Assembly: GCA_938015425.1 (NCBI GenBank)
Contig: CALLPQ010000169.1
Location: forward strand, 1 to 36,869
DNA length: 36,869 nt
From: an uncultured Parvularculaceae bacterium
GTDB taxonomy: Bacteria > Pseudomonadota > Alphaproteobacteria > Caulobacterales > Parvularculaceae
Direction of reading: 5' to 3'
A program made the translations under genes and the position numbers. Below the pieces are notes generated by a model. That model searched no databases and was not told the DNA's origin. It worked only from the letters and a program-made list of their open reading frames with translations. Below are positions 15,157 to 36,245 of the stretch, one piece after another. Every line of letters begins with the position of its first letter. Positions within the stretch are counted from its first letter, which is position 1.

Positions 15157-16230
15157 ATGGTGATGACTTATAAAATTAAAACCTTAGCCATATGCGGAAT
15201 TTCTGCACTTACACTATCTTCGATTGCCCAAGCGCAAACTCTTGATGGGAGATTCCCCATTCGAGAGCCCGGCGCTAAAGCCAGCGCAAGCGGTCCAGCC
15301 AAAGGTAAGCCAGACAAGGAAGAAGAAGGCCCGCTACAAATTATTGTAGATGCCAATGGCATTGGTCCCTATACCTCAATCAATCAAGCCATTAAAGATG
15401 TGGCCGTTGGCGGTATTATTTACGTTCAACACGGTGTTTATAATGAAAGCATCAACCTCACGAAATCTGTTTCTATCCAAGGAGACAGAGGGCCAGGATC
15501 AGGCGTTGAAATCAACGCACCGATGAACCAGCCTTGTTTGCGGTTTGCACCAAAAGATGGGGCATCCCATGCTGTGGTTGCCAATGTTAAATTTTATTCA
15601 AAAATAAATTCAGGGGCAAACGCGTGCGTCAATGTTATGGGCGGTGTGTTCACCTTGAAAGAAAGTGACGTCCTTGGTAGTGGCGTGCGTCCCTCCGTTA
15701 AAATTTCTGGCGGCACGGTTATGCTGGAAAAAAACAATATCGCAGCAGGATCAGAGGGCATTTTTGTAGAACAGGCCCATAGTCTTTCTCAAAGCTTTAT
15801 CATTGATAACCATATCAACCGGAACAAGATCGGCGTCGATATTGCCTCTGGTAGTCGGGCTGACGTGGTGATTGCGGGGAACGAGATTTTTGATAATCTT
15901 GATAGCGGCGTTAAATCATCTGGTTATGGCGGCGCAAAACTTATTGGTAATAAGATACGCAACAATAAAGGCTCGGGTATTATTCTAGACAAATATTCCA
16001 AGCTCTCTCTCATCCGTCACAATGATATTTTGCAAAACGCTGGTGATGGTGTGGCGATTCCTTTTGGGGCTAATTCTATCATTGAAGATAATGATATTGT
16101 TGGGAATAGCGGCCTAAGCATTTATGTGCGGGACGGACTATTACCTAAAGTCACAAATAACTTTATTGATAATAATGATGGCGATAAGCCAAGGAAAAAA
16201 CGCCGCCGCAATAAAAAGCGACGTAACTAA
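15157..16230 (+). CDS. Right-handed parallel beta-helix repeat protein, exported
   Basis: Signal-like LAICGISALTLSSIAQAQ; PYTSINQAIKDVAVGGIIYVQHGVYNESI; repeated N-rich turns (NHINRNKIGVDIASGS, NEIFDNLDSGVKSSGYGG, NKIRNNKGSGIILDKYS). Five bp after the upstream stop. Confidence 0.87.
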   Translation: MVMTYKIKTLAICGISALTLSSIAQAQTLDGRFPIREPGAKASASGPAKGKPDKEEEGPLQIIVDANGIGPYTSINQAIKDVAVGGIIYVQHGVYNESINLTKSVSIQGDRGPGSGVEINAPMNQPCLRFAPKDGASHAVVANVKFYSKINSGANACVNVMGGVFTLKESDVLGSGVRPSVKISGGTVMLEKNNIAAGSEGIFVEQAHSLSQSFIIDNHINRNKIGVDIASGSRADVVIAGNEIFDNLDSGVKSSGYGGAKLIGNKIRNNKGSGIILDKYSKLSLIRHNDILQNAGDGVAIPFGANSIIEDNDIVGNSGLSIYVRDGLLPKVTNNFIDNNDGDKPRKKRRRNKKRRN

Positions 16231-24008: not shown

Positions 24009-27000
24009 TTAATTCACACGCTTAACATTATTGTCGCCGTCGCGGTCAATCATTTTGATATAAGGATCAATGCCCGCAAATTCCGGCTCTTGATCAACGA
24101 TGATCGTAATCACCGGATTGTCCGGATCAATATCGTGCTTTTGCAAATAAAGAACATCTTCTTTTTTAAATTTGCCAGACGCCGGATTTTCTAAAAACAC
24201 ACCAATATCAAGGGGGATTGTAATATCCGCATCGCTTTCTCTGCCTTGGCCGTCAGCGTAAAGTTTTTTAGCGCTATATTTCAATGTCACATCAAAACGA
24301 CCATCTTCCCGCTTGGACACATCGACATCATCAGCTTTTAAATCATAAAGAGTAATCTTCTCGAAAAGGTCTGTGATAAGATCATTATATTTTGGATCAG
24401 CTTCTTCCCTTAAAATAGTCAGGAAGTCCAGACTGGTTGCATAAGGGTTCGATTTAAATGCTCGCAGCTCGATTAATCTTTGCAAAGAGCGGTTAACCAC
24501 ATCTTCGCCTACATAATCTTTAAGGGCGTACATCACCAATGATGCTTTATTATATTGGATATGCTGCTGGTTTTCTACACGATATAAAGGAAGCTCTTCA
24601 AACCGTTCACTACCACGCGCCTGCAAATATCGATCAAGCTCTCGCTTAAGGTAATTACGGATTTTAGCTTCCCCAAAGGTTTTCTCCATTACCATCAGCG
24701 CAGAATATTGAGCAAACCCTTCAACCAACATTGTACCCCCCTGGACATCTGCCCCCATGACTTGGTGGGCCCACCATTGGTGCGCAATCTCGTGAGACGT
24801 GACATAGAAAGAAACATCAATTTCTTCCGGATCTCTGGTATCAGTGATAAAGCCAATCCGTTCGGAAAACGGAACCGTGTTAGGAAAAGATTGCGCAAAG
24901 GCGCGGTAGGGGAATTCCAATATGCGCAATTGTCGATACTGAAATGGACTAAAGTTTTCTGTAAAATAATCGAAAGATTTTTTCGCAGCATCAATCATCC
25001 CGTCCACATTATAGTCATGGGGTTTATGATGGTAAATCTGAATGGCGACATCGTTCCATTTATCTTCTTTAATTGTGTAGTCAGCCGACTGAAAAGAAAA
25101 GAAATTCAAAATGGGCGTATCCATCTTATAATGGAAATAGCGGCGATTATTCTCGATCCATTCACGTTCAAGATATCCCGGAGCAATCGCTGTTTGATCA
25201 GGCACGGTAGAAACAATTGTTTCAAAGTTTACAAAATCAGAGTCACTGCGCAAATAACTGGTATTATATTTATCCGTATCTTCCAATTTCGCCATGCGCG
25301 GGATTTCTTCGAGCCCGTATTTGCGGCGTGTATTGCGGGCCTGCAACATCCGCTGGGGGACAAAACCAAGGGTTGGCATTAAGTCATTATTGTTAAGAAA
25401 TGTACCGTTCTGCACTAGGGTTAACCCATTAGCTCCATTGCGAAAACCAACATATTCAAAACGGGTATTAAAAGTCAGCGTGCGTTTTTCATTCGGCTGC
25501 ATAGGTGTATCAAGTTTAAACCGATAAACATTAAAAACCTCATCAGAATGCTCCAACTTGCCGCCCGTCAAGCTTTGTCCGATCACTTTCAAATCGCTTG
25601 AATATTCCACATGGACCATTTTGATGGCTTGGTCCGTTTTGTTTTGCACAATATAAGTGCCCGCCGCATCAGCCTTGCGTTTATTGGGGTAAATATCGAG
25701 GTTAACATTAACATCGATAATTTTAGGTTGAATATCATTTTCATACTGACGGTATTCTTTTTCATACCTAACAGACAATCGCTCCCTATCTTTGCTAGTG
25801 ACATAGTCATTGAGGATATTGGTGTTATAAAAAATAAAGCTACCCGTGGCGACCACCCCTATTAAGGCAAGGGTCAACAAAATTCCGGAAACACCCTTTA
25901 ATTTTTTAGGCAGGCTTTTCAGTCTTCTAAAAAACCCAGTATGAACGCCGCGATTAAACAACACATAAGATAGGACAAGGAGGATGATCGCAAAACAGGT
26001 CCAATAAAGATTAAACCAGTTACGAATAGACAGAAAATGCCCATATTTATTAATATCGGAATAGGCCCCATCCGGCGCACCTGCATATTGATAGAGATTA
26101 TGTTCAAAGCCAAAATTACTCAGTGTAATGGACAAAACATAATAAATCAGCATCGCAAAAATACCCAGATAACGGTTGGCAAAAACAGTCTGGAAAAATA
26201 TGGCCAACACCGTAACCTGCATCAATGGCAGTCCGGTGATATAGAAAAAGCGCACAAAATATTGCCCTATTTCAATATCGGTAAATCCATTAAAGATTTG
26301 ATGCGAGATACCCAATATAGCCATGAACAAAAACAAGCCAAAAACAACCATGAAAATGGCAATCATTTTAGGGAATATAAAGGCCCAGTTCGGGGTAGGC
26401 GTTGCATCAATCACCTCATATATGCCCGCACTCTTGTCACGCCACATTAAATCGGCCGCATAAAAAACAATCACCACAAATGGCAGGAAGCCAAGCCCAT
26501 TGTTCAACAAGTTAACAATATGCCGCGTGACCGGCAAAATCGGCGCGCCAAAAACTTCGCCAGCAAACAATAGGTTTATTAAGGCAAGGCCGGTTCCCAA
26601 AACAAGCAAAACCCAAAATGTAATAGATTTTAAAACAGTCTTTACCTCAAATCCTGTGCGGGCAAGGAACTGTTTTTGCGCGGTTTTATTAGTCGAAAAG
26701 TCACGCATCACGGTGGGCAAGGTCACTGTGGTTGGAATAAACCTTTGTTGGGGCAATGCTCTTGATTGTTTTTTGCTATTCGCGCTTTTGCCGAGATTAC
26801 GAAAGGAAAATAAAAAATAATTTCCCATAAATAATACAATACCAATACCAATCCATAAAAGGCGATTATAAAGCAGGCTTCCGGTAAGGGGGGGGAGTTT
26901 TGTATTCTGCTCGATTGGGGTCCACCCAAAAGTGGCCTGCGTCCACGCCCCAACCCCTAGAGGGTCCGCAAGGGCTGCGATATCACGCAATTCAGGTTGG

Positions 27001-27584
27001 CCCAACAGTGTTTGTGAAACAAAATATAGAACGAAAAACGAAACAAGCCCGATATAAGTTGCGATAAGCGAACGCGTTAATGTAGCAATCGCAAACATCA
27101 TCATACCGATTGCAAACATGTTCGGTAAGCCCATGACGAGCAAAGCATAAACAAAGTCAAAGGGCCTAAAAGGCCCCAACGTTTCTGGATCTATCCACGG
27201 CATTAGAGAGCCAATCAGTAAGCCGATAATCACAGCAGAAAAACACAAAGAAACAATGACAAAGGCACCGATGACCCGGCCAAATAAATAATCTCTCTTG
27301 GTTATCGGCGTAGAGAATAGTAAACCGTCCATCTTGCTGCTGGTATCGCGTAAGGCAGCATTAGAGAAAAATATGGTGGGAATAATAGCCCCGAACAGAC
27401 TCAAAATCATTGTTGAAAAAATGATGGCGAAAGGCGCATTCACATTGGTATTACCAAACACGACCTGTACTTCATCAAGCGAGATAACCGCGAAACTTAA
27501 TAAAAAGAATATCGCGAACATAATGATAAAAGCGGGAGATTTTAACTGGTAGTTAATTTCAAATCGTGCAATTTTTCCAAGCAT
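24009..27584 (-). CDS. ABC-2 type permease fused to periplasmic M1-like metallopeptidase
   Basis: N-terminal ~600 aa with many TM segments; C-terminal ~600 aa with HEIAHQWWAHQV...LVEGFAQYSALMVMEK. Start at MLGKIARFEI (27584) chosen; ORF open to 27629. Confidence 0.92.
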   Translation of the reverse strand: MLGKIARFEINYQLKSPAFIIMFAIFFLLSFAVISLDEVQVVFGNTNVNAPFAIIFSTMILSLFGAIIPTIFFSNAALRDTSSKMDGLLFSTPITKRDYLFGRVIGAFVIVSLCFSAVIIGLLIGSLMPWIDPETLGPFRPFDFVYALLVMGLPNMFAIGMMMFAIATLTRSLIATYIGLVSFFVLYFVSQTLLGQPELRDIAALADPLGVGAWTQATFGWTPIEQNTKLPPLTGSLLYNRLLWIGIGIVLFMGNYFLFSFRNLGKSANSKKQSRALPQQRFIPTTVTLPTVMRDFSTNKTAQKQFLARTGFEVKTVLKSITFWVLLVLGTGLALINLLFAGEVFGAPILPVTRHIVNLLNNGLGFLPFVVIVFYAADLMWRDKSAGIYEVIDATPTPNWAFIFPKMIAIFMVVFGLFLFMAILGISHQIFNGFTDIEIGQYFVRFFYITGLPLMQVTVLAIFFQTVFANRYLGIFAMLIYYVLSITLSNFGFEHNLYQYAGAPDGAYSDINKYGHFLSIRNWFNLYWTCFAIILLVLSYVLFNRGVHTGFFRRLKSLPKKLKGVSGILLTLALIGVVATGSFIFYNTNILNDYVTSKDRERLSVRYEKEYRQYENDIQPKIIDVNVNLDIYPNKRKADAAGTYIVQNKTDQAIKMVHVEYSSDLKVIGQSLTGGKLEHSDEVFNVYRFKLDTPMQPNEKRTLTFNTRFEYVGFRNGANGLTLVQNGTFLNNNDLMPTLGFVPQRMLQARNTRRKYGLEEIPRMAKLEDTDKYNTSYLRSDSDFVNFETIVSTVPDQTAIAPGYLEREWIENNRRYFHYKMDTPILNFFSFQSADYTIKEDKWNDVAIQIYHHKPHDYNVDGMIDAAKKSFDYFTENFSPFQYRQLRILEFPYRAFAQSFPNTVPFSERIGFITDTRDPEEIDVSFYVTSHEIAHQWWAHQVMGADVQGGTMLVEGFAQYSALMVMEKTFGEAKIRNYLKRELDRYLQARGSERFEELPLYRVENQQHIQYNKASLVMYALKDYVGEDVVNRSLQRLIELRAFKSNPYATSLDFLTILREEADPKYNDLITDLFEKITLYDLKADDVDVSKREDGRFDVTLKYSAKKLYADGQGRESDADITIPLDIGVFLENPASGKFKKEDVLYLQKHDIDPDNPVITIIVDQEPEFAGIDPYIKMIDRDGDNNVKRVN

Positions 27585-27680
27585 GTAATAATCTCTTAAT
27601 GTTTTTAGACGCGTGCCAGCAGAAAACAAGGCGAACTAGAAGGTCAGTAAAATCAGCGAACGGAGCTTTAACGCCACATT

Positions 27681-28571
27681 TTAGGCTGCGGCTACTTTTT
27701 CGCTATCCCCCGAGAAGACCTTCCGGAAATAGACATCTTCCAGATCGGCATCCACCCCTTCAAACCCATCTCCCGGATCATTTTCAGAATAGATACGGAT
27801 CACCGTCCTGCCCGTCATCAAGCGTGCAGAGAGTAAGTTGTATTTTGCCTGATAGGCTTCAATCTCGCTTTTCGGAATGGATTTTTGCCAAATACGTCCC
27901 GCCAATTGGGCCACAAGGTCTGCTGGCGCTCCGCGCGAGACAATTGAGCCCGCGGCGATAATCGCCATATTGGGGCAAAGATCCGCAACATCGGAAACAA
28001 TATGAGTGGATAATAAAACCACAACATTCTCGCCAATTTCCGACAATAAATTATGAAAACGGTTGCGCTCTTGCGGATCAAGGCCGGCGGTTGGTTCATC
28101 CACAATAATTAATTGCGGATTCCCGATCAGCGCTTGGGCCACGCCAAAACGCTGGCGCATACCGCCAGAATAACCCGCCAAGGATTTCTTACGCACCTCA
28201 TACAAATTAACCTGACGTAATAGCTCCGCCACCAGCTCCTTACGTTCCCGATTATTCGTCACCCCTTTTAGAATAGCGATATGGTCCAACATTGCTTGTG
28301 CGGACACACGGGGGTAAACGCCAAAGTCTTGCGGTAGATAACCCAAAGACTGTCGCAACCGGCTTGGGTCTTGTAAAACATCAATATCACCGAATTGAAT
28401 GCCCCCTTTGGAGGGAACCTGCAAAGCCGCCAAACACCGCATCAAGGAAGACTTGCCCGCGCCATTGGGGCCCAACAGACCAAACATACCCTTGGGGACT
28501 GACAGCGACACATTATTAAGCGCTCGCACACCATTGGGGTAAACATGGGTAAGGTTTGAAATTTCTAGCAT
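27681..28571 (-). CDS. ABC transporter ATP-binding protein
   Basis: Walker A GLLGPNGAGKSSLMR, signature YSGGMRQRFGVAQAL, Walker B LIIVDEPTAGLDP. Same strand and directly upstream of the permease/peptidase. Confidence 0.96.
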   Translation of the reverse strand: MLEISNLTHVYPNGVRALNNVSLSVPKGMFGLLGPNGAGKSSLMRCLAALQVPSKGGIQFGDIDVLQDPSRLRQSLGYLPQDFGVYPRVSAQAMLDHIAILKGVTNNRERKELVAELLRQVNLYEVRKKSLAGYSGGMRQRFGVAQALIGNPQLIIVDEPTAGLDPQERNRFHNLLSEIGENVVVLLSTHIVSDVADLCPNMAIIAAGSIVSRGAPADLVAQLAGRIWQKSIPKSEIEAYQAKYNLLSARLMTGRTVIRIYSENDPGDGFEGVDADLEDVYFRKVFSGDSEKVAAA

Positions 28572-28860
28572 AAACGCCCCTTTAACATTGTTCTTTTGAG
28601 CAACCGGCATAACCCCCGGTTAGACCTCTTCCTCTATTGATAGATTCGAACCTGAACACCGAATTGTCAATCAAGATATTGAGTTTAAAGGGCGTAAAGC
28701 GTTAGAACACGAGATAAATGCGACGAAACGTTATCAAGACGAAACAGGAGACAAAACCAAACCCTCGACAAAAGCGTAAGGGGAAGCACCACACCATGAA
28801 AGCCAAAGCGCTTTAGTCTTCACCGTCTCAAAACCCGTCACGATTGCCAATTATTGCGCC

Positions 28861-30090: not shown

Positions 30091-32844
30091 TTATAGATCG
30101 TTGACCGACCGTATCTCAATATCGGTCAAACCGGCATCACGCACCTCTTGTTCGATTTTTTTCGCATCACCAATGATAATCCAGGTTAGATTATCAGGGC
30201 GTAAGACTTCTTTGGAAGCCGCTACAATATCTGCAACATCAAGACCATTATATTTCGCTGGCAATGTTGCAGGGTAATTGGTTGGGCGCCCAAAACGGTT
30301 AGAGGAAAGCAAACTACCCAACACCGCATTCGAAGTTTCAAAGCGACCCGGTAAAGAGCGAATATTATTTGCTTTTACGGCAGAAAGTTCCGCATCAGTC
30401 GCTGGCTTATCATTTGTTATACCCGCTAACTCTTTGCGGATTTCCTCGATAGAAACACCGGTTTTATCAGTTTGAACAGGCGCCAAAACAATAAGCGGGC
30501 GTTGTCCGATACTGTCAATAAGCGCCGTAAAGGCACCGTATGACCAACCCTTATCTTCCCGCAAGTTCAAATTAATGCGTGATATAAAGCCGCCACCAAC
30601 AATTTCATTCAAGGCTGATATTGCGATATTATTTTCAACCCCTGTACCCGGCGCAACCTGCCCGGCCAGAATGATGGATTGCGGAGAACCGGGACGGTCA
30701 ACCAAAACAACTTTGGGGGTGTCCGGAACATTTACAGTGGCGATATTTTTAGTTGGCTTATCGCCTCTTACACGCCACCTGCCAAAATTACGTTCCAACA
30801 AAGGTTTAATTTGTGCAAGACTTGTATCACCAACCACGAAAATCGTACCATTATCAGGACGTAACCATTTATCTTTAAAACCAACCAGATCATTCCGGCT
30901 AATTGAAGTTACCGCATCAATCGTGCCAGACCCCGTTAGCGGAATACCGTACGCATGATCATTACCATACAATAAAGGTGGTAATAAACGTAATGCGATG
31001 GCATTAGGATTGGCTTTTTCCTGATTAATTCCGGCAAGGAGTAGTTTACGTTGCCGCTCGATCTCTTCATTATCAAAAGAGGGTCTAAGCACCACATCAG
31101 ATAAAAGCGAAAGTGAAGAACCAAGATTTTCCGACAATGCAGACATCCGCACGGTTGTGGTGTCTAGATTGGACCCTGCATTCAAGGTTGCACCAAGTTT
31201 TTCAAGCTCGGATGATAATTCCAGCGCATCAAATTTGCCCGCGCCTTCATCCAACATCGAGGTTGTAAAATTGGCAAGGCCAATTTTGCCGCCTGCATCT
31301 GCGGCATAACCCGCATCAAACTGTAGAGCGATATTCACAACGGGAACCGTATCCCGTTTGGCAAACACAACCTTCATGCCGTTACGCAATGTGGTTTCTT
31401 CAACCTGCGGGAATGCCAATTGGGTTTCACCCGTAACAACCGGTAAGCCCGTGCTACGATCAACCCCTGTCTCATTTGCTGAATATTTAGGGAAGGGTTT
31501 ATAAATCACTTGATGGTAATTTTGACCAAACCAAGCCCGCGATGATGCCAATACTTTTTCTGGTGTGGCGTTATCGAGTAAAGCCAGCTCTTTTTTATAA
31601 AACCCGGGATCACCAGCATAAAGCTCGCCTTGGGCAAGAGTTGTGGCTTTGCCGCCAAAACCGCCAACTTGTTCAAGTCCGCGAATAATGCGCGCCTTGG
31701 TTTTTGTTGAAACCAGCTTTACCTCATCACGAGTCGGCCCGTTTTCAAGAAACTCCGCAATAATCGCATCAAGCTCGGCTTCAACCTTTTCAACACTTTC
31801 GCCCTCTTTCACATCAACACTGATGCCGGCGATAGACGCCATTTGAAGCTCAAGGTTAAAGGTACCCACATTCGTTGCTAATTGCTTGTTATAGACAAGC
31901 TCTTTATACAGACGGGAATTTTTTCCATCCCCTAAAACACTTGATGCGATAGAAAGATCACTGGAAACAGGGTTTGTGTCTTCCGGCGTTGCCCACACGC
32001 GATAAATGCGCGATTGTGGTACCTGACCCTCAATGGTTTCACTAGAAATAGCATTCCGCTTTGGCACCCAGCTATCATATTTTGCCACGGGTGGGCCCGA
32101 CGGAATATCCCCAAAATATGTATTCATTTTTGTTTTGGCGGTTTCAACATCAATATCACCTGCTAAAACAACAAAGGCATTGGCCGCACCGTAATAGTCA
32201 GTAAACCACGTTTTTACATCTTCCAGAGAGGCCGCATCAAGATCTTCTAATGATCCGATGACAGAATGTGAATAGGGGTGACCAGGAGGGAAAAGGCCTT
32301 CGAGAATTGAAGTAAATACACCCCCATAAGGTGCATTTTCGCCTTGACGTTTTTCGTTTTGAACAACGCCGCGTTGTTCGTCTAATTTATCTTGCTCAAT
32401 CGCACCCGCAAAATGGCCCATACGGTCAGATTCCAACCACAAAATGCGGTCTAATGCGGGGGTTGGCACCGTTTGGAAATAGTTAGTGCGATCTGTATTC
32501 GTTGTTCCGTTTAATCCCGTTGCACCAACCTCTTGCAAAGGTTTAAACCATTCATCATCATAATTTTCAGAGCCTTGAAACATAAGATGTTCAAATAAAT
32601 GGGCGAAGCCGGTTTTTCCGGTGGGTTCGTCTTTAGAGCCCACTTTATACCAAACAGAAACAGCAACCACGGGCGCTTTACGATCTTGATGAACGATAAC
32701 GGTCAATCCATTATCCAGTTTAAATTTTTCATAATTAATATTGACTTCTGACTGTGCAAAAGCCGTGCTTACAGTCATTGGGCTTGCAAACGTCAGCGCA
32801 GCAATTGCGCCAACAGAGCTAAGCAGTGATTTCATACGTGACAT
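30091..32844 (-). CDS. M16 family zinc metallopeptidase, two-module, exported
   Basis: Signal peptide; HxxEH motif in GFAHLFEHLMFQGSEN; two M16-like halves (second begins near ETTLRNGMKVVFAKRDTVPVVNIALQF). Confidence 0.95.
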   Translation of the reverse strand: MSRMKSLLSSVGAIAALTFASPMTVSTAFAQSEVNINYEKFKLDNGLTVIVHQDRKAPVVAVSVWYKVGSKDEPTGKTGFAHLFEHLMFQGSENYDDEWFKPLQEVGATGLNGTTNTDRTNYFQTVPTPALDRILWLESDRMGHFAGAIEQDKLDEQRGVVQNEKRQGENAPYGGVFTSILEGLFPPGHPYSHSVIGSLEDLDAASLEDVKTWFTDYYGAANAFVVLAGDIDVETAKTKMNTYFGDIPSGPPVAKYDSWVPKRNAISSETIEGQVPQSRIYRVWATPEDTNPVSSDLSIASSVLGDGKNSRLYKELVYNKQLATNVGTFNLELQMASIAGISVDVKEGESVEKVEAELDAIIAEFLENGPTRDEVKLVSTKTKARIIRGLEQVGGFGGKATTLAQGELYAGDPGFYKKELALLDNATPEKVLASSRAWFGQNYHQVIYKPFPKYSANETGVDRSTGLPVVTGETQLAFPQVEETTLRNGMKVVFAKRDTVPVVNIALQFDAGYAADAGGKIGLANFTTSMLDEGAGKFDALELSSELEKLGATLNAGSNLDTTTVRMSALSENLGSSLSLLSDVVLRPSFDNEEIERQRKLLLAGINQEKANPNAIALRLLPPLLYGNDHAYGIPLTGSGTIDAVTSISRNDLVGFKDKWLRPDNGTIFVVGDTSLAQIKPLLERNFGRWRVRGDKPTKNIATVNVPDTPKVVLVDRPGSPQSIILAGQVAPGTGVENNIAISALNEIVGGGFISRINLNLREDKGWSYGAFTALIDSIGQRPLIVLAPVQTDKTGVSIEEIRKELAGITNDKPATDAELSAVKANNIRSLPGRFETSNAVLGSLLSSNRFGRPTNYPATLPAKYNGLDVADIVAASKEVLRPDNLTWIIIGDAKKIEQEVRDAGLTDIEIRSVNDL

Positions 32845-33078: not shown

Positions 33079-33678
33079 TTATCGCGGTGCGCGTTTTGCG
33101 AGAATCCGTTGTAAAGTCCGCCGATGCATACCAAGACGACGTGCGGTTTCAGAAACATTATGGCCGCATAACTCATAAACCCGCTGGATATGCTCCCAGC
33201 GTACACGGTCGGCCGACATGGGGTTTTCCGGCGGGGGTGGGCGCTCCCCCGGAGGAGCCAGCAAAGCTTTTTCAATATCATTGGCATCAGCCGGTTTTGG
33301 CAAATAATCGAGAGCCCCCGCTTTGACCGCCGCCACCGCTGTCGCGATATTGCCATAGCCCGTTAAAATAACCACGCGACAATCTTCACTGACTTCGTGA
33401 ATCGCGTTAACCACCTCTAATCCATCACCATCTTCAAGGCGTAAATCCACCACCGCAAAAGCAGGCTTTTCTAGCTTGATAGAGGCTTTTGCCTCACTTA
33501 CCCCTGCGGCTAAGACAGGTTTAAAACCCCTCTTTTCCATGGCCCTACCCAGCCGATTGCGTAAGGGTTCGTCATCATCAACAATCAACAAGCTCATATT
33601 TTCCGGGCGCACATTTTTTTGTTCATCGTCTAATGTAGTGGGCGATGTAGCGGGGTTTTTAGGGGGGTGGTTTTCCAT
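33079..33678 (-). CDS. regA: RegA/ActR/PrrA-family response regulator
   Basis: LLIVDDDEPLRNRLGRAM, VVDLRLEDGDGLEVV, ILTGYGNIATAVAAVKAGALDYLPKPADA, and C-terminal Fis-type HTH NVSETARRLGMHRRTLQRILAKRAPR. Confidence 0.93.
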   Translation of the reverse strand: MENHPPKNPATSPTTLDDEQKNVRPENMSLLIVDDDEPLRNRLGRAMEKRGFKPVLAAGVSEAKASIKLEKPAFAVVDLRLEDGDGLEVVNAIHEVSEDCRVVILTGYGNIATAVAAVKAGALDYLPKPADANDIEKALLAPPGERPPPPENPMSADRVRWEHIQRVYELCGHNVSETARRLGMHRRTLQRILAKRAPR

Positions 33679-33878
33679 GATCCAGTTCCTTCTTTCCCGA
33701 TGGTCGTATTCAAGGTTTTACAAAACTCGAACGTTTCAAATTCAGATCAATATTGCATAAATTTTTTGCAATATTGTTTAAAGTGCTTTTATACGTCTCC
33801 ATACCCCATATGTAGCGCCATTGAAGAGAGTGCAACCCTTGGGTAATTATGTCGCAATTATTAGAAGGCTTGTGCGCC

Positions 33879-35474
33879 CTAATCCGTGTTGGCCCCTTCA
33901 ATAATCGCCGCCACGGGCCACACTGCCCGCACCATAGCCCCGTAAACTCCTGACTTACGCGATAAACCGTCTTCGATAATATCCGAAACGATCTCTTCGA
34001 TAAATGCCGACTCTCCGGTTAATGCTTCTGTCTCCCTCATTATATTCCCGAAATCGATGGAGGCTTGCGTACGCTCCAATAAGGTTTTGGCAATAAAAAA
34101 GCCGAGACCCATTCCATGGTCTTGTTGTTCGTGGTCCGTTTTCTTGTAGATTATTTCAGTATTTTTAATTTTAGTCCGGCTACTGGATGGTTTTGAATTT
34201 ACATAAGGCTCACCAAGGCGTCCCAAAACTTCCGGGCTAAATCCCGGCCCATCATCAAGAATAACGATACTCATTCTATCATCGTACCACCGCGCCGACA
34301 TCACCACCGTTGTACTGGCATAGCTGGCCGCATTTTCGATAATATTACGCAATCCATAAATTATTTCAGGGCGGCGCACCATCATCGGGGGGGCGGGTAA
34401 AGTGCCATCAAAATCCACATCGAAAATCATTTGCGGGCTATTGCTCATCTCCACAAAGGGCGCCGCGGCCTCTCGCAGCAAACTATCAAGACCAATACGA
34501 TCATGCATGACATCCCCTTCATCGCCCCTTAGGGATAATCGCCCTAAAATATCACGGCAGCGACGCACTTGTGAAATCATTAATTCCGCATCCTCGCGTA
34601 ATAATTCTTGATCAAGGGTTTCCCCTTTTTTTAACCCTCCCCGTAATTCTTCCGAAATTTCTTGTGCTGTTAATTGAATGGTCGCTAACGGGGTCCCTAA
34701 TTCATGGGCTGCGGCTGCGGCAAGCCCACCAAGTGCCGATAGCCGTTCTTCGCGAGAGAGAACCATCTGTGTAGCAATTAAAGCACTTCGCATCTGGGCA
34801 GACTCAGCTGCAATACGGTGGGCATAGATTGAGAAAAAAACCACAGAGAAAGAAAGGGCCGTCCAAACACCGGCAATAAAAACTGGCGGTACCGCAAAAC
34901 TGTTTTTATCCGCCCACGGAAGCGGCCAATGAAAATAGCCGACAATCGCCACCAATATGAGTGCCAGAAAAACGATAGCAATGGTATGCCGCAAAGACAA
35001 AACACTAGCCGCAATGGTGACAGGTGCCAAGATCAACACGGCAAAAGGGTTTTGCAAGCCCCCCGTAAAAAACAGCAACATGCATAATTGGCAAATATCA
35101 AAAGCGATGTGCAATGCCGCCTCTGTGTCACCAAGATAGCGTTGGGATGAAAACCGTAACATCACAAACAGATTAAGCCATACACTCGCCGCGATAATGC
35201 CAACACAAATCGATAACGGGACTTCATATCCCAAACCAAAATGGACCAAGGCAATAGCCGTGGTTTGTCCAATCACGGCGAGCCACCGTAATGTGGTTAA
35301 AGTGCGCAAGCGTACGGGCCCCCGCAGCGGGTTCCACAAGACGCGTTCAGCAGATTTATCCGGTGAACCCCCTAAAAACTGCGCCGTTCTATTTCTTTGA
35401 ATATGTTCGGGAGAAAACAATGACGCACCCTGCTTGCGCAAGGCGGCACCAATAGAGCGAAACCGGTTCATCAT
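33879..35474 (-). CDS. regB: RegB/ActS/PrrB-family sensor histidine kinase
   Basis: Multiple TM segments, GGLQNPF heptapeptide, H-box AAAHELGTPLATIQL, conserved RRCRDILGRL, ATPase motifs IIENAASYA and ILDDGPGFSPE. Confidence 0.92.
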   Translation of the reverse strand: MMNRFRSIGAALRKQGASLFSPEHIQRNRTAQFLGGSPDKSAERVLWNPLRGPVRLRTLTTLRWLAVIGQTTAIALVHFGLGYEVPLSICVGIIAASVWLNLFVMLRFSSQRYLGDTEAALHIAFDICQLCMLLFFTGGLQNPFAVLILAPVTIAASVLSLRHTIAIVFLALILVAIVGYFHWPLPWADKNSFAVPPVFIAGVWTALSFSVVFFSIYAHRIAAESAQMRSALIATQMVLSREERLSALGGLAAAAAHELGTPLATIQLTAQEISEELRGGLKKGETLDQELLREDAELMISQVRRCRDILGRLSLRGDEGDVMHDRIGLDSLLREAAAPFVEMSNSPQMIFDVDFDGTLPAPPMMVRRPEIIYGLRNIIENAASYASTTVVMSARWYDDRMSIVILDDGPGFSPEVLGRLGEPYVNSKPSSSRTKIKNTEIIYKKTDHEQQDHGMGLGFFIAKTLLERTQASIDFGNIMRETEALTGESAFIEEIVSDIIEDGLSRKSGVYGAMVRAVWPVAAIIEGANTD

Positions 35475-35624: not shown

Positions 35625-36245
35625 ATGGCTATGCTTCAATTGCGCTCACTCACGCAATCACCTTTTAAAAGCGTTATCGTTTTATTAACCATGTTCGGGG
35701 TTTTGCTCGCCTGTTCTCCGGCTTCGAATAAAAGCCTACCTGCCGGTATTGTTATTGAACTATCATCTGCCTTTCATGGGCAATATACCCTTGTGGATAT
35801 GCATGGAAAAACCCGTAGTCAAAATAGTTTCGGGGGCAAACCGGCCCTTATATATTTTGGCTTTACCTCGTGTCCAGATGTGTGCCCAACAGGCCTTGGG
35901 GTGATGAGTGCGGCCCTTAACGAATTAGGGCAAAAGGCCGATAATATTCAACCTCTATTCATCACTCTAGACCCCGATCAGGACAGCGCGGAAGTGTTAC
36001 GGGATTATCTGGCGTTTGAACCCCGCCTCTTGGGATTAACAGGCACAGCTGACGCCTCTAAACAGGCACAAATGGCCTTTAAAGTCTACTCACAACGCAC
36101 TAAGCAAGAAGATTCAGCCCTTGATTACACCATTAACCATTCCAACTTTTTCTATTATGTAGATGCCCAAGGTACGCCGCTTTATGCCCTTAAAGCCACT
36201 TTAACCCCCCAGCAATTAGCGCAATTTATCAATTCAGTCCGTTAA
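35625..36245 (+). CDS. SCO1/SenC/PrrC-family protein
   Basis: KPALIYFGFTSCPDVCPTGLGVMSAALNEL (CxxxC), LFITLDPDQDSAEVLRDYLAFEPRLLGLTG, and distal His in INHSNFFYYVD. Divergent from regB. Confidence 0.94.
   Translation: MAMLQLRSLTQSPFKSVIVLLTMFGVLLACSPASNKSLPAGIVIELSSAFHGQYTLVDMHGKTRSQNSFGGKPALIYFGFTSCPDVCPTGLGVMSAALNELGQKADNIQPLFITLDPDQDSAEVLRDYLAFEPRLLGLTGTADASKQAQMAFKVYSQRTKQEDSALDYTINHSNFFYYVDAQGTPLYALKATLTPQQLAQFINSVR

Follow-up and report, generated by a model that had tools for sequence, protein, structure and literature searches.

An ABC-2 permease carrying a C-terminal M1 peptidase in the same chain was catalogued in 2013 as TCDB family 3.A.1.145 (e.g., Myxococcus xanthus Q1D520), without a function (PMC3924187); this was the only paper on the fusion found in the literature searched, where no function is reported. 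The M1 aminopeptidases (ERAP1/2, IRAP, PSA, PepN, LTA4H) have in common the fold of domains I–III, the HExxH motif, a third Glu ligand, and a catalytic Tyr, and their canonical signature combines an X18 spacing with a GxMEN motif. In M1 enzymes, domain IV closes the cleft, and a second amine-binding Glu lies in the QxE of domain I, as known from PepN. The Glu and Asn of GxMEN have been implicated in transition-state stabilization, and a contact of these residues with the N-terminus of the substrate is considered possible (PMC2241622). In YbbAP-TesA, an ATP-driven membrane module is combined with a periplasmic hydrolase, and YbbAP is proposed to extract or present hydrophobic molecules for TesA (PMC12646458). 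In NosDFY, the transmembrane protein NosY and the ATPase NosF serve a large periplasmic partner, the beta-helical NosD.

The locus described here lies in a window of 36,869 nucleotides (contig CALLPQ010000169.1 of an uncultured Parvularculaceae bacterium) and consists of an ATPase gene followed on the same strand by a gene for a permease–peptidase fusion (Table 1), in agreement with an earlier note, made from the letters alone, that had read a protein of about 1190 amino acids with the ATPase just upstream. The same note had stated that such fusions exist in annotation; the window's fusion is placed in TCDB 3.A.1.145 by its domain layout, and no family-level difference was seen on the features compared. 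The fusion reading frame (24009–27629, minus strand) has no stop over 1206 amino acids when counted from a TTG, and the ATG at 27584, which agrees with the orthologs, was taken as the start. The ATPase frame (27681–28610, minus strand) reaches back to an ATG at 28610, the probable start being the ATG at 28571. A frameshift or assembly artifact joining two genes, which the earlier note had considered, is ruled out by the same layout in 110 full-length relatives and by a single open frame, with no internal stop or frameshift, in the 30 relatives that were aligned at full length (the window's own included, the others at 40–60% identity).

Table 1. Features of the two-gene locus, in window coordinates
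Feature	Position	Strand	Basis
ABC-2 permease/M1-type peptidase fusion, 1191 aa	24009..27584	-	ORF; 30 aligned orthologs; AlphaFold2 full-length model
ABC ATPase subunit, 296 aa from ATG 28571	27681..28571	-	ABC_tran (Pfam), E 6.4e-28; Walker A, signature, Walker B
First ABC-2/NosY-like transmembrane half, residues 1–262	26799..27584	-	NosY match of transmembrane model; ABC2_membrane matches in orthologs
Second ABC-2-like transmembrane half, residues 299–562	25899..26690	-	Helix pattern repeats that of residues 1–262
Thirteenth membrane helix, residues 563–592	25809..25898	-	Hydropathy peak 567–585; helix 565–590 in models
M1 domains I–III, residues 615–1191	24012..25742	-	Foldseek ERAP1/2, IRAP, PSA; hhalign to M1 aminopeptidases
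FAQSF, residues 896–900, GxMEN slot with Glu replaced by S899	24885..24899	-	phmmer, hmmsearch, and hhalign alignments
HEIAH, residues 931–935, zinc ligands and catalytic Glu	24780..24794	-	H, E, H invariant in 110/110
E955, third zinc ligand, X19 after H935	24720..24722	-	Invariant, spacing 19 in 110/110
Y1011, M1 catalytic tyrosine position (YxKG)	24552..24554	-	Invariant in 110/110

The profile searches proposed in the earlier note gave a mixed outcome. Peptidase_M1 (PF01433) is matched by the fusion above the Pfam cut-off (E 2.4e-10), whereas the ABC2 families stay below threshold in the window's own protein (ABC2_membrane_5, E 0.0011) and are recognized in relatives, ABC2_membrane_3 being matched by 34 of 40 transmembrane regions of the family. 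The Walker A, YSGGM signature, and Walker B motifs of the ATPase are all intact, and its matches include ABCA and NosF ATPases. AlphaFold2 modeled the full chain with pLDDT 85.8 and pTM 0.81, and residues 1–599 with pLDDT 85.2 and pTM 0.77. With Foldseek, the C-terminal part matched ERAP1/2, IRAP, and PSA at E of about 1e-18. The best structural match of the transmembrane part was NosY, with a target TM-score of 0.71 at a weak E of 3e-3 (sequence match E 0.034), other matches being a fused mycobacterial efflux permease and PmtCD; structure comparison aligned the tandem halves with the mycobacterial permease over about 600 columns. On these matches, the fusion may resemble NosDFY in having NosY-like halves, a NosF-like ATPase, and a large periplasmic partner, but its halves lie in one chain and its partner, a zinc peptidase in place of the beta-helical NosD, is joined covalently. 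Thirteen membrane helices are predicted, i.e., two ABC-2/NosY-like halves plus one; from this count, the peptidase is predicted to be periplasmic, carried across by helix 13, and one permease chain is predicted to pair with two ATPases.

All residues expected of a working zinc site are kept. In 110 of 110 aligned members, no variation is seen at H931, H935, and E955 (zinc ligands), at E932 (general base), or at Y1011. The earlier note had found HEIAH intact with the downstream Glu one residue farther away than in canonical enzymes, and both observations stood, as did the 19-residue spacing when checked for conservation, since HExxH-X19-E occurs in every one of the 110 relatives. By comparison, 28 other M1 proteins from the same and related genomes all have X18, and 19 of them have GxMEN. 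Because X19 is fixed in the family, it does not point to a defect in the site of the window's copy, and a damaged or degenerating copy is ruled out by the universality of the motif changes. The motifs are altered, as the note had stated, but in the whole family and not specially in this fusion. Set against the M1 aminopeptidases, the fusion retains the fold, HExxH, the third Glu ligand, and the catalytic Tyr, and differs in having X19, no GxMEN, no domain IV (the chain stops after domain III), and an attached permease.

The GxMEN slot was mapped by phmmer against ERAP2, by a family profile against PDB, and by hhalign profile–profile alignment (fusion versus M1 aminopeptidases, E 1.5e-27 over 517 columns). 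All three set FAQSF on GAMEN, so that S899 occupies the Glu position, and the absence of the motif reported in the earlier note was thereby upheld. The family consensus of the slot is F-A-Q-[SA]-F, with Ser in 72 and Ala in 38 of the 110 members at the Glu position, A897 invariant, and Q898 present in 109 of 110. A candidate loss of the QxE Glu at NGTF was rejected, as hhalign aligns this Glu with E768 of KLED, where 110 of 129 sequences have E or D. Judged from these alignments, the amine site is weakened and not fully dismantled, only the GxMEN Glu being clearly lost. E890 and E908 are invariant in the family, and E768, E890, or E908 could serve as an alternative amine-binding acid.

The replacement of the GxMEN Glu by Ser or Ala family-wide, together with the missing domain IV, makes cleavage within peptides or another mode of substrate recognition likely, and the orthologs are probably not standard aminopeptidases. 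It is quite unlikely that the protein is an ordinary membrane-anchored aminopeptidase with a different recognition of the N-terminus, its ABC part exporting something unrelated or serving as an anchor. Such an enzyme would fit the M1 fold, the complete catalytic set, and the possibility that E890 and E908 bind the amine, and M1 subfamilies without GxMEN (aminopeptidase O and an actinobacterial group) continue to be counted among the aminopeptidases (PMC2241622); however, the GxMEN Glu is lost in 110 of 110 members, and the constant fusion to a full ABC module speaks for coupling. Three features support the earlier picture of an ATP-linked, membrane-tethered, zinc-binding protein that is unlikely to be a standard aminopeptidase: the predicted topology, a catalytic set without variation, and the absence of the GxMEN Glu across the family.

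Constraint is unevenly distributed along the chain. Over 129 sequences, 25 invariant residues fall in M1 domain II, compared with 2 and 3 in the two transmembrane halves and 3 in domain III, which makes the catalytic domain the part of the fusion under the strongest constraint. This clustering, with the invariant zinc, Glu, and Tyr set, suggests that the orthologs are probably active enzymes. The same pattern argues against a NosDFY-like mechanotransmission device in which the M1 domain mainly acts as an ATP-driven binding or effector domain (sensor, chaperone, or assembly factor) and proteolysis is of lesser importance; the full catalytic set is kept in all 110 orthologs, with the invariant residues concentrated in the catalytic domain. 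We regard that alternative as unlikely, although NosY is the nearest transmembrane half of solved structure, the matches of the ATPase include NosF, and some paralogs have lost the zinc motif.

In these paralogs, HExxH is replaced by RExxR with X22 (L144, the same locus as L156) or is missing altogether (L151 and L152), and the ATPase gene is still upstream in all three. Some branches thus appear, from their sequences, to have lost zinc binding while retaining the machine, and the M1-like domain may serve without catalysis in some members. Since these rare relatives without HExxH retain the ATPase, catalysis is not essential in every member. The GxMEN Glu is likewise absent from divergent relatives, most of which retain X19. 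An intact copy (L128) occurs in the genome that carries L144. In more distant fusions (L142/L153, L154, L155), HExxH-X19-E is accompanied by GYALPQ where GxMEN would lie, and the M1 part is shorter, at about 490 amino acids, probably lacking domain III. Among a peptidase driver, a sensor, and an exporter, which the earlier note had listed together, the sequence does not decide; conservation favors catalysis in the orthologs, and the rare dead paralogs permit a binding role.

The family is widespread. A search of 119 related genomes gave a match at E <= 0.001 in 46, some of them ordinary M1 proteins only. A scan of genome contigs found at least 589 relatives; of the best 80, most belong to Alpha-, Beta-, and Gammaproteobacteria or to Bacteroidota (Pontibacter, Rufibacter), and a few to acidobacterial and other MAGs. 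Of 399 genomes drawn evenly from the window's phylum, 28 (~7%) carried the fusion. Among the 108 relatives that could be tested, 107 have the ATPase gene immediately upstream, usually across a gap of about 10–30 bp; two of the 110 members were excluded as cut by contig ends, and the sole testable member without it is from Pontibacter pamirensis (L100).

No third conserved gene was found in the sampled loci, whose same-strand neighbors represent 66 Pfam families, each in no more than 3 of 72 proteins. This bears on a processing exporter, in which a peptidase on the outer face of the membrane would trim an emerging peptide or amino-acid derivative, an arrangement otherwise like that of peptidase-containing ABC transporters. 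The ABC-2 halves resemble those of exporters, including PmtCD and the mycobacterial efflux pump, and the TCDB authors proposed export of an amino acid, a derivative, or a metabolic product (PMC3924187); yet the conserved neighboring precursor or biosynthesis gene that is usual for dedicated cargo exporters is missing from the sampled loci, and we consider this reading improbable.

Several neighbors in the window were noted in their own right. A double-domain M16 (insulinase-type) peptidase is encoded near the operon (30091–32844, minus strand) and is not conserved as a neighbor. About 8 kb from the operon, a right-handed beta-helix protein (15157–16230, plus strand) contains a NosD-like stretch (E 1.1e-11) and has the fold of the natural NosFY partner. 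A Fis-type HTH response regulator and a histidine kinase with a PilS-like membrane domain (33079–35474, minus strand, and 35625–36245, plus strand) adjoin a SCO1/SenC gene, an arrangement that we take to resemble RegAB/PrrAB. Antisense gene clusters in the ORF calls were judged to be spurious overlaps. A defense system was rejected on the lack of a PADLOC match for the fusion and generic matches for the ATPase, and a phage origin on the lack of a PHROG match.

The reading that we prefer, while giving it somewhat less than an even chance, is a self-contained two-gene, ATP-driven periplasmic peptidase, in which a NosFY-like module would feed hydrophobic peptides to the fused M1 domain. Two ATPase copies would pair with one permease chain bearing both halves in tandem, and helix 13 would carry the single M1-type zinc peptidase into the periplasm. 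Moved by ATP binding and hydrolysis, the transmembrane halves would pull out or push peptides that are hydrophobic or associated with the membrane toward the periplasmic side and deliver them to the peptidase cleft for cleavage. The enzyme would most likely cut inside peptides or recognize its substrate otherwise, and not remove one residue at a time as an aminopeptidase; inner-membrane peptide remnants or membrane-active peptides are guesses at its substrates. YbbAP-TesA serves as a functional precedent, the likeness being in working principle only, as YbbAP is a type VII (MacB-like) transporter and TesA a separate esterase.

This study adds that X19 and the absence of GxMEN hold throughout the family, that strong constraint acts on the catalytic domain, and that dead paralogs exist; no paper stating these three points was found in the literature searched, which took in few of the subscription journals. 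It is possible, if rather doubtful, that the family as a whole comprises widespread ATP-driven periplasmic endopeptidases, whose ABC module feeds membrane-derived peptides to an M1 site needing no free N-terminus, with some members acting as noncatalytic ATP-driven binding machines. If ATP hydrolysis does drive the periplasmic zinc peptidase, the fusion would join YbbAP-TesA as a further ABC-plus-hydrolase machine and may provide a route to clear or process membrane peptides.
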